Positions 21,757 to 31,686 of a stretch of DNA of 32,131 nt are shown piece by piece (position 1 is the stretch's first letter; each line of letters begins with the position of its first letter). A model generated the notes under the pieces. It saw nothing but the letters and a program-made list of their open reading frames with translations. It ran no database searches and was not told the origin of the DNA. The translations under genes and the position numbers were made by a program. Source of the DNA: Treponema sp. (GTDB taxonomy: Bacteria; Spirochaetota; Spirochaetia; Treponematales; Breznakiellaceae); assembly GCA_031290475.1 (NCBI GenBank), contig JAITNM010000105.1, positions 1-32,131 of the forward strand, given 5' to 3'.

Positions 21757-22103
21757 TTAGGCCGGCTGTCTTGGACCCTTGCGGGTCCAAACCCTACCGC
21801 TTACACATCCTTAGGCCGGCTGTCCTGTACCCGTGCGGGTCCAGCATTTACCGCTTACATATCCTTAGGCCGGCTGTCCTGTACCCGTGCGGGTCCAAAC
21901 CCTACCGCTTACACATCCTTAGGCCGGCTGTCCTGTACCCGTGCGGGTCCAAACCCTGCCGCTTACACATCCTTAGGCCGGCTATCTTGGACCCTTGCGG
22001 GTCCAAACCCTACCGCTTACACATCCTTAGGCCGGCTATCTTGGACCCTTGCGGGTCCAAACCCTACCGCTTATACATCCTTAGGCCGGCTGTCCTGTAC
22101 CCG
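21757..22103 (-). repeat. 54-bp tandem repeat array between paaK and jetA, with hairpins
   Basis: The marker TTAGGCCGGCT recurs at 21757, 21811, 21865, 21919, 21973, 22027 and 22081, always 54 bases apart. This gives six full units, and the seventh start lies inside the paaK coding end (to about 22103). Read on the minus strand, each unit copies the last codons of paaK including the stop, followed by a hairpin (arms TTGGACCC and GGGTCCAA in the purest units, four-base loop). Three units instead have GTACCC in one arm, like the paaK end itself. There are no unique spacers, so this is not a CRISPR array. It may act as terminator or message stabiliser between the two operons. Confidence 0.92.
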
Positions 22104-28263: not shown

Positions 28264-31005
28264 ATGAAATTTCTCCGTTGCAAATCATTGCAGAGTTTTC
28301 GATTGCCGGTGGTTATATTCATCTTTTTAACCCTTTCCTTCCATCTTTTGGCGGAGGAAGGCGGCATACGCCCGGAAGAAGCGGGAGCTGTTCCGGCCCT
28401 TACGCCGGTAAATCAGACGGACATTGACGGAACCGGCTCTATTTCCCCCCTGAAGCCGCTCCTCTGGAAGATCCGGCCAAAACGTTACGTGACTCTCGAT
28501 ATGTGGACCTTCCTGTTTATAGGAATTATGCTGTTTTCTTTGATAGGCTTGGGCGTCCTTACCATGGGAATTGCCGGCATTCTCCGGGAAGGGATGGACA
28601 TACGGAAAGAAATTTCCGCCCTGGCTGGGGGAGATATTCTGCCCTTTGAACAAAAGAGGCGTTTTACCGGGCTCCGAAAACGGGGGGCCGGTCTCAGGCT
28701 GAAACTAACCTCCTTTATTATTGTACTGGTCCTTTTGGTAACCGTCATGGTTTCCACCCCCCTCTATGTCTGGATGACCCGGCTCCAGCGGGAAACCCTT
28801 TTTGAAGGGTTCCGGGAACGTTCTACCATTCTTCTGGAAGGACTTGCATCCAGCCTCAGGGTCTGCCTTGCCGAAGAGCCCCTCATATCCCGTGCCCGCG
28901 AAGGGTTAATACCGGAATTAAGTTTTCTTCCGAATCAGATTTCCGCTGTTCCCGAAGCCCGGTATGTTACCATCACCGGTTTTGATCCGTCCGGTCAGGG
29001 ATCAGAGGAACTGGTCTGGGCTACCAACGACCCGGATATCCTTAATAAGATTGATACCCCCGTATTCCGTCCCGGAGTTTCCCGGTTTACAGATGAGTTG
29101 AGCCCAAACCTGGGGGAAATTTCCTCCAGGTTTAACAATCAGTCCCGTTTGGAAGCAGGGGACAGGACGGCAGCCCTCTTCATGCTTTACCGGGAAGAAG
29201 CAGCCCTCCTTGGCCGGACAGATGAGCAGGATATTAAAAGGCGGGAGGATATCCGCGCAACCATAGAGGGCCTGGAAGCCCGTATCGGTGAACAGCTGGC
29301 CGCTATTAGCAGGGAGATAGGTTCTTTGCCTGCCTATGGCGCCGCCGGTTTTGTCCCGGACAAATCCGCTCTAAGCCGGCGTATTGATTCGTTGCGAAGG
29401 GTACATACCCCGGCCCCTTGGGGCGGAACCAAGGGTATGTACCCTGAGTCAAATACCTTACGAGAACAACATACCCCGACCGCTTGCGGCGGGGTTGTTG
29501 ATAATGAAAATCATAGTTTTATTCTTTTTATGCCCATACTGTTTCCCCGGTATTCTGATAATACCTTCTTTCGCGGCCTTATCCGGCTTGAGGTTTCTAT
29601 TGATTCTATTCTTGATCAAATCGCCGGTGACCAGTGGAATCTCCTTAAGATGATACTCCTTGTGGCCGGCGCCGCGCTGATCATAGGAACCCTGGGTACC
29701 TTTATTTTATCTACCCTGATACTCCATCCCATACAGAAGCTGGTCAGTTATGTGGAACTCATTCGGGACACGGAAGATAAAACCAAACTGGAGGGGGTGG
29801 AGATCAAGATTAAAACCTGGGATGAATTAGAGGTTCTGGGCACTACGATCAACGATATGATTGTAGGGCTCGTCAACGCCGCCCAGGCTTCCAAGGATCT
29901 CACCATCGGCAAGGAACTGCAGAAAAAATTCATCCCCCTTGAGACTGATAAGGAAGGGAACAAGTTAACTTCCGGTTTTAAGAATACCGCCTGCGCGGAA
30001 TTCTTCGGTTACTACGAAGGCGCCAAGGGAGTATCGGGGGACTATTTTGACTATATCGATCTGGACGGCCGTTTCTATGCTATCATCAAATGCGATGCGG
30101 CCGGTAAGGGCGTTCCGGCGGCGCTTATCATGATCCAGGTAGCAACCATGTTCCTCAATCATTTTAAAAATTGGACATCCATTGAAAACGGACAGTATAT
30201 TGAAGAGGTAGTCTATCAGATTAACGATTTTATCGAAGCCCTTGGTTTTGAAGGCCGGTTCGCCGCCTTTATTCTCTGTCTCTTTGACTCCGAAACAGGA
30301 TTACTGCGGTGTTGTAATGCCGGGGACAACATTGTGCACTATTACGACCATTCGGAAAAGAGACTGAAATCCATCACTCTGCCCCAATCCCCCGCCGCCG
30401 GGGTGCTTCCCAATTTTCTCGTAGAAAGCAAGGGGGGCTATACAGTCCAGACTTTTACCCTGGATCACGGCGATATTCTCTTTCTCTATACCGATGGTAT
30501 TGAAGAGGCAAAACGCAACTTCCGGGATTCATCATTCAACGAAATTACCTGCACCGAAGGGGACGCCCCTGCGGGTACTCCCCATGCCAATCATGTGGCA
30601 GGCCAGGGGAATGAACAATTAGGAGTCGACCGGGTGGAGGGGATCATCAATGGGGTGATGAACAAGCGGTTTTATTCCCTCTATAAATACCACAACCCCG
30701 AGGGGGAAAATGAACTGCAATTCGACTTTACTTCCTGCAGCGGTACTGTGGAGGAGGCCATCATGGCCCTGGTTGCGGTAGAAAAGATGTTCCGCCTCTA
30801 TAAGAACCCCGGAGCGGGGGATGATTCCCGGGTTTTAGTAGACCGTAAAGTAGACAGGTTCCTTAAAGAGCATTTTACCCAGTACAGAAACTACTGCGGC
30901 CAAACCAGGGAACCCGGAGAAAACAGCGTCTACACCTCGTATACCCATGTCATGGAAGATCCCCAGTACGATGATCTCACTATTTTGGGTATTAGGAGAA
31001 AATAG
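28264..31005 (+). CDS. Membrane-bound HAMP-SpoIIE (PP2C-type) serine phosphatase
   Basis: This 913-residue signalling protein probably dephosphorylates an anti-sigma-factor antagonist. Layout: an N-terminal hydrophobic segment (about 11-30), a membrane helix at about 80-106, a third at about 148-170, an extracytoplasmic sensor region (about 172-458), a fourth helix at about 460-487, a HAMP linker (about 488-540) and a C-terminal SpoIIE/PP2C phosphatase domain (about 560-910). Metal-binding motifs are SGDYFDYIDLDG (near 592), CDAAGKGVPAAL (609-620), CNAGDN (near 685) and YTDGIEEA (near 742), so it looks catalytically intact. About 34 residues of the sensor region (from about 379) are encoded by a palindromic repeat inserted in frame. 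The ribosome-binding site is weak. No anti-anti-sigma partner is encoded in the window. Confidence 0.9.
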   Translation: MKFLRCKSLQSFRLPVVIFIFLTLSFHLLAEEGGIRPEEAGAVPALTPVNQTDIDGTGSISPLKPLLWKIRPKRYVTLDMWTFLFIGIMLFSLIGLGVLTMGIAGILREGMDIRKEISALAGGDILPFEQKRRFTGLRKRGAGLRLKLTSFIIVLVLLVTVMVSTPLYVWMTRLQRETLFEGFRERSTILLEGLASSLRVCLAEEPLISRAREGLIPELSFLPNQISAVPEARYVTITGFDPSGQGSEELVWATNDPDILNKIDTPVFRPGVSRFTDELSPNLGEISSRFNNQSRLEAGDRTAALFMLYREEAALLGRTDEQDIKRREDIRATIEGLEARIGEQLAAISREIGSLPAYGAAGFVPDKSALSRRIDSLRRVHTPAPWGGTKGMYPESNTLREQHTPTACGGVVDNENHSFILFMPILFPRYSDNTFFRGLIRLEVSIDSILDQIAGDQWNLLKMILLVAGAALIIGTLGTFILSTLILHPIQKLVSYVELIRDTEDKTKLEGVEIKIKTWDELEVLGTTINDMIVGLVNAAQASKDLTIGKELQKKFIPLETDKEGNKLTSGFKNTACAEFFGYYEGAKGVSGDYFDYIDLDGRFYAIIKCDAAGKGVPAALIMIQVATMFLNHFKNWTSIENGQYIEEVVYQINDFIEALGFEGRFAAFILCLFDSETGLLRCCNAGDNIVHYYDHSEKRLKSITLPQSPAAGVLPNFLVESKGGYTVQTFTLDHGDILFLYTDGIEEAKRNFRDSSFNEITCTEGDAPAGTPHANHVAGQGNEQLGVDRVEGIINGVMNKRFYSLYKYHNPEGENELQFDFTSCSGTVEEAIMALVAVEKMFRLYKNPGAGDDSRVLVDRKVDRFLKEHFTQYRNYCGQTREPGENSVYTSYTHVMEDPQYDDLTILGIRRK
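29399..29500 (+). repeat. Palindromic repeat element inserted in frame inside the phosphatase gene
   Basis: This 102-base stretch folds into two hairpins. The first has perfect 12-base arms, GGGTACATACCC (29399-29410) and GGGTATGTACCC (29433-29444), with an inner CCCCTTGGGG palindrome. The second has CAACA and CCCCG...CGGGG pairing around CCGCTTGCGG (29467-29500). Two blocks, 29418-29445 and 29460-29484, are shared with the non-coding copy at 31597-31649. The length is a multiple of three and the reading frame stays open, so the element is translated. Confidence 0.88.
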
Positions 31006-31011
31006 TGCGGG

Positions 31012-31111
31012 ATTTAGAGGCTCTAAATACGGTGAAAACCGCATTTGCGTATGCAAGTGCATGAGACCAAGGTTTGCGGTCTGTCCATAAAATAATCGAC
31101 TTTATGGACAG
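31012..31111 (+). ncRNA. Hairpin-dense structured leader of the small gene at 31127
   Basis: Five possible stems follow one another in 100 bases. They are ATTTAGAG/CTCTAAAT (31012-31028); CGGT-GAAA-ACCG with a GNRA-type loop (31030-31041); GCATTTGC/GCAAGTGC (31041-31060, one wobble); AGACC/GGTCT (31064-31082); and a perfect 11-bp CTGTCCATAAA/TTTATGGACAG (31081-31111). The last ends five bases before the AGGAAG ribosome-binding site. Neighbouring stems share one or two bases, which allows switching. No known riboswitch class was recognised. It could also be debris of repeated elements. Confidence 0.4.
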
Positions 31112-31510: not shown

Positions 31511-31596
31511 GGCTGACCGGTCCTTGCCCGGCACGCCTTTAATACCCACGACCGGAAGGATACCCAAGAACCCGCTCGCCGGTTCGCGGGGGAGCA

Positions 31597-31649
31597 TTGG
31601 GGCGGAACCAAGGGTATGTACCCTACGAGAACAACATACCCCGGCCGCT
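31597..31649 (+). repeat. Second copy of the palindromic element, in non-coding DNA
   Basis: 31597-31624 matches 29418-29445, and 31625-31649 matches 29460-29484 with one difference (G for A). The 14 bases that separate the two blocks inside the phosphatase gene are absent here. GGGTATGT (31612-31619) can pair with ACATACCC (31634-31641). The flanks differ from the first copy, so this is a dispersed element and not a local duplication of the gene. Confidence 0.88.
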
Positions 31650-31657
31650 CTGCCTCC

Positions 31658-31686
31658 CCCGCCGAAAGGCGGGTTCTTTGTTTTTT
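31658..31686 (+). terminator. Rho-independent terminator after the small helical-protein gene
   Basis: A perfect 6-bp GC stem CCCGCC/GGCGGG with a GAAA loop (31658-31673) is followed by a T-rich run (31674-31686). It ends the rightward transcription unit that contains the phosphatase and the small protein. Confidence 0.85.

Follow-up and report, generated by a model that had tools for sequence, protein, structure and literature searches.

Short palindromic sequences that are dispersed through the genome and lie in frame within unrelated protein genes have been described as Rickettsia palindromic elements (RPEs), and a 2024 review merely called in-frame palindromic insertion in other prokaryotes conceivable (PMC10969869). 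Among other mobile sequences, ISDra2 inserts 3' of TTGAT without duplication (PMC8612924), and QMITEs carry flanking direct repeats (PMC5896051). Here we analysed a stretch of a draft Treponema sp. genome (GCA_031290475.1, contig JAITNM010000105.1, 32,131 nucleotides, hereafter the window), in which a palindromic element lies in frame within a phosphatase gene directly 3' of a TTGAT motif.

The host gene (28264–31005) is a 913-aa open reading frame (ORF); it encodes a membrane sensor whose SpoIIE phosphatase domain is C-terminal (residues 605–755). This gene, the element with its parts and the second element copy are given on the forward strand. An alignment of many element copies, which share the start TCGT.GCG and the end GTTGTTGAT, delimited the mobile unit to 29389–29502 (114 bp). 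In translation, the unit starts on a codon boundary and adds 38 residues, SLRRVHTPAPWGGTKGMYPESNTLREQHTPTACGGVVD, as codons 376–413. The first-pass annotation of this DNA had correctly recognized a two-hairpin element in frame in the phosphatase ORF, but its size of 102 bp and about 34 residues was too small. The target motif TTGAT (29384–29388) directly precedes the element. Hairpin 1 (29398–29445), which was supported by an inverted repeat, the predicted fold and compensatory changes, is composed of the outer arms AGGGTACATACCC and GGGTATGTACCCT and an inner GC hairpin. Hairpin 2 (29467–29500), which was supported by the predicted fold and compensatory changes, has a stem of the type CAACA.ACCCCG / CGGGGTTGTTG and nearly reaches the constant right end TTGAT (29498–29502). 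The DNA folding energy of the two-hairpin stretch was −31.6 kcal/mol (z = −6.1), and none of 200 shuffled sequences was equally stable.

The window also contains a composite second copy (31566–31679), in which the element core is placed in non-coding DNA between arms of another palindrome (31566–31594 and 31654–31678). The second copy of the core that had been annotated there proved to be an exact 28-base repeat (31597–31624, identical to 29418–29445) outside any gene, in the form of a composite derivative. A further palindromic intergenic sequence (TGTCCATAAAATAATCGACTTTATGGACAG) was observed at 31007–31110 between the phosphatase ORF and the one that follows, and at 21783–22064, GGGTCCAAACCC was repeated at a spacing of 54 bases, apparently as a tandem repeat.

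The element belongs to a family with many copies in Treponema and termite-gut relatives. Its own genome, a 3.2-Mb draft of 306 contigs, had 56 matches, nine of which were 96–100% identical over 112–121 bp, which excludes a chance origin of the window repeat. As the annotation had predicted, dispersed copies were found both within and outside genes. The copies on two other contigs (C89 and C90) matched the coding copy over all 114 bp with no difference, indicating that the coding insertion is recent. Element matches were found in 19 of the 59 genomes of the order, the own genome included. Among 247 genomes drawn from the phylum, the right-end core was found in 10, all of which belonged to two families of the Treponema order; the 209 genomes from outside the order lacked it, and a reversed control pattern was found in none of the 247. 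A species-genome scan returned at least 80 named matches, and those listed were all from Treponema or other spirochaetes, including T. vincentii, T. socranskii and T. putidum as well as numerous metagenome bins of Treponema and Spirochaetaceae. Searches of viral contigs, phages, plasmids and Rfam returned no match.

The subfamilies diverge by up to ∼25% with hairpin pairing kept through compensatory changes. In the automatic consensus, eight hairpin pairs had both sides changed, and in hairpin 1 the seventh and eighth outer-stem pairs, counted from the loop, were present as C-G, A-T and T-A variants. Nine identical copies were found within one genome (G029), and such identity within a genome indicates that each lineage amplifies a version of its own. 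Common variants were short forms of 46–50 bp and longer composites with other hairpins in the loops. In T. vincentii, one copy (L344) was a 113-bp form and the same site in another species (G064, L368) carried a mini form of ∼50 bp, a length difference that perhaps arose from recombination between repeated hairpin parts. The L344 flank (query positions 901–1200) was part of another abundant repeat with dozens of matches in each T. vincentii relative.

We then defined the insertion site from a census of the retrieved loci, in which 107 distinct copies had both ends. The four bases 5' of the element were TTAT in 57 and TGAT in 43 copies (100 of 107 together), and the base directly 3' was T in 100 copies. 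Since TTTAT is a frequent left motif but the right end reads TTGAT, the terminal TTGAT is part of the element and not a target duplication; in tandem arrangements elsewhere, the following copy uses the TTGAT of the preceding copy as its target. For T. vincentii OMZ 806 (G063), the flanks of 20 insertions were joined in silico and the first 13 of the joined sequences (3899 bases) were searched in four sister genomes. Five sites (L305, L342, L345, L347 and L351), including one in an AraC-type regulator gene, aligned without gaps across the junction in G059, G061 and G062, from which it follows that insertion adds exactly the element; two other sites (L352 and L353) aligned to empty sites with small indels a few bases from the junction. 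The element inserts immediately 3' of T(T/G)AT with neither duplication nor deletion of the target, and its right end TTGAT is constant. At the AraC site, G062 (L333) had TTTATTCGTGCGGAGGG where G059 was empty, a net gain of three bases in frame that resembles what would remain of the element's left end.

Among the 107 distinct copies, 89 were outside long ORFs (150 codons or more); of the 18 within such ORFs, 11 kept the frame, including three in less certain genes (L234, L244 and L273), and 7 broke it. Two further in-frame cases lie beyond these 11, L147 and L351, the latter missing from the automatic census owing to a change in the penultimate base of its right end. The in-frame hosts included PurL, where the element precedes the glutaminase domain (L074, reverse orientation), and a DegT-family aminotransferase (L236, reverse), to which the homologue ArnB aligns at 15–283 and 354–418, the 38 residues of the insert lying between. 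In T. vincentii, they included the AraC-type regulator (L305, reverse), proteins of 692 and 223 aa (L341 and L342) and a HigB-like toxin (L351). An AcrB-type transporter carried a 48-bp form (L058), and two ORFs without a Pfam match carried the element (L285) and a 132-bp composite (L147). The earlier proposal of a spirochaete family that spreads through protein genes is thereby borne out by repeated in-frame insertion in unrelated genes. In the rnhB gene for RNase HII on contig C226 of the own genome, a 113-bp copy (L007:580–691) splits codon 2, and its terminal TTGAT sets a TTG in frame at the former ATG position, possibly as a replacement start codon.

Copy lengths were divisible by three for 13 of the 18 copies inside ORFs and 36 of the 89 outside (p = 0.019), a suggestive enrichment among related copies that are not fully independent. 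The 114-bp form corresponds to 38 codons, and four of the six reading phases are open in the subfamily of the window copy. Because so many phases are open and the commonest length, 114 bp, is divisible by three, in-frame survival looks like the result of chance and selection.

Taken together, we consider it likely that 29389–29502 represents a non-autonomous, palindromic mobile element that was inserted recently, moved in an IS200/IS605-like manner and is tolerated by its host protein as ballast. The comparison with phosphatase homologues that had been suggested supported an insertion: homologues from 29 other genomes all lacked the 38 residues, as did a homologue in the same assembly (contig C199; 74% identical over the C-terminal part), which was too diverged for blastn, and the absence from the window gene's homologues was shown at the protein level only. 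In the AlphaFold2 model, the insert (376–413) is located in a domain between the long helices 141–203 and 447–502, with pLDDT below 50 at 381–414, a confident strand from 418 and an overall pTM of only 0.47. We read the insert in this model as a tolerated, unstructured loop. From the open frame, we infer that the translated protein includes the 38 residues, which probably add ballast and no new function.

Other origins of the 38 residues have to be weighed against an insertion. The open frame and the intact gene would also be expected if the residues were a long-standing functional segment of the sensor domain from whose gene the repeats elsewhere were derived, but their absence from every homologue, including that of the same assembly, the DNA identity with copies elsewhere and the low model confidence make this almost inconceivable. 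A misjoin of repeat-rich draft contigs at the window copy is suggested by the 306 contigs of the assembly and by several copies at contig ends; it is nevertheless very improbable, given that both flanks belong to the same gene with homologues aligning on either side, and that equivalent in-frame copies are present in the complete T. vincentii genome, whose sister genomes have empty sites. The position of the insert in the sensor region between long transmembrane-type helices would suit an element kept for a recruited function, in which the hairpins or the added residues regulate the phosphatase. We regard such recruitment as improbable, since the copy is identical to others and too recent for a conservation test, and no second species was found with the element in the phosphatase gene.

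As for the way in which the element moves, it inserts 3' of a motif with no duplication, has hairpins at its two ends and finishes in a target-like sequence on the right, all of which points to IS200/IS605-like movement. In such a single-strand process, the hairpins near both ends would be recognized, and the strand would be cleaved 3' of the target motif at the left end and 3' of TTGAT at the right end, by an enzyme whose source the genomes searched did not reveal. Insertion would be roughly random and the coding copies would be survivors: in-frame copies located in a loop or linker would be tolerated, and the rest would lie between genes or be lost. No Y1 transposase (PF01797) exceeded the cut-off in the own genome and seven other copy-rich genomes. 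A search of 2.3 Mb of retrieved DNA for an autonomous parent that shares both ends yielded two long spans, neither of them convincing. A recurrent neighbouring gene was rejected as a mobiliser, the gene clusters being ORFs that read through the element itself. Two relatives without the element (G023 and G027) had 28 and at least 61 matches, respectively, to Y1-type transposases, possibly RAYT expansions.

In the complete genome of G029 (3 855 671 bp), 23 of 26 ends or copies had the left end toward the origin, where the origin was placed near 0 and the terminus near 2.1–2.2 Mb from a weak GC skew, so that the terminus is approximate. This bias is expected from lagging-strand insertion; gene orientation in G029 was only weakly biased. 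There was no clear bias in G037 (6/13), G059 (22/39) and G063 (18/28), counted with the origin taken at the record start, a placement checked by skew for G029 and G037. We did not adopt the orientation bias as a general rule because it was clear in G029 only.

The same mobile element could instead be moved by an enzyme unrelated to IS200/IS605 TnpA, such as another HUH nuclease, a recombinase or an RNA-based route, with a convergent likeness to ISDra2. In favour of this alternative, genomes that hold many near-identical copies had no PF01797 match above the cut-off, and three of the four genomes examined showed no clear orientation bias. However, it is typical of IS200/IS605 elements to combine targeted, duplication-free insertion with end hairpins and a right end that resembles the target, and the bias in G029 is strong; we thus hold an unrelated enzyme to be a possible but rather unlikely mobiliser. 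More speculatively, a spirochaete family of translated palindromes, which would have repeatedly lengthened Treponema proteins in frame, may be mobilized by a single-strand enzyme that does not belong to the known Y1 family, a proposal that we put forward only tentatively.

In-frame palindromic insertions are best known from Rickettsia, and the Treponema family represents an independent case in another phylum. It offers exact ends, an exact target and gap-free empty sites in culturable species, and its host proteins have relatives with solved structures, so that two questions become testable: the identity of the mobiliser and the effect of such elements on proteins. The family is also a warning that Treponema gene models can hold repeat-derived protein segments.

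Several known systems share features with the element. Like MITEs such as QMITE1 of Coxiella, it is a non-autonomous repeat able to overlap ORFs, but it has neither a target duplication nor a terminal inverted repeat; a DDE-type MITE was rejected since the ends TCGTTGCG and TTGTTGAT are not inverted repeats and the empty sites showed no duplication. From the nature of integron junctions, an attC site was set aside, as the left junction of the element varies and the right one is constant. REP and REPIN sequences with their RAYTs are likewise short palindromic repeats of many copies, mostly between genes, whereas the Treponema element has a sharp target and in-frame coding copies; a REP/RAYT element was rejected because neither tag tetranucleotide (GTAG or CGTC) occurs in 29389–29502 and no RAYT-type gene (PF01797) exceeded the cut-off in the eight copy-rich genomes.

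With IS200/IS605 elements (ISDra2 and IS608), the element shares insertion 3' of a short motif, the lack of duplication, end hairpins and a target-like right end. It differs in that eight copy-rich genomes were without a Y1 transposase and no autonomous parent was found, and in that the lagging-strand-type orientation was clear in one genome only. We did not assign it as an IS200/IS605 miniature element, as the cognate enzyme was searched for and not found.

RPEs, which are not known to have a mobiliser, resemble the Treponema element in being palindromic, dispersed, multi-copy and in frame in unrelated protein genes. The differences are the phylum, the length (∼114 bp against ∼150 bp for RPEs), the share of copies in ORFs (18/107 against nearly half of the RPEs of R. 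conorii), the use of both orientations in genes and the sharp T(T/G)AT target with empty sites. The first-pass comparison with RPEs was apt as to the behaviour and the separate family, less so as to the placement, most copies (89/107) being outside long ORFs and some breaking genes. A search of the open-access literature found no description of the core sequence or of such a Treponema element. The likeness to RPEs is one of behaviour, drawn by description and not by sequence, and implies no descent. In sum, the element behaves like the Rickettsia palindromic elements but forms a separate family, for which we found no earlier description.
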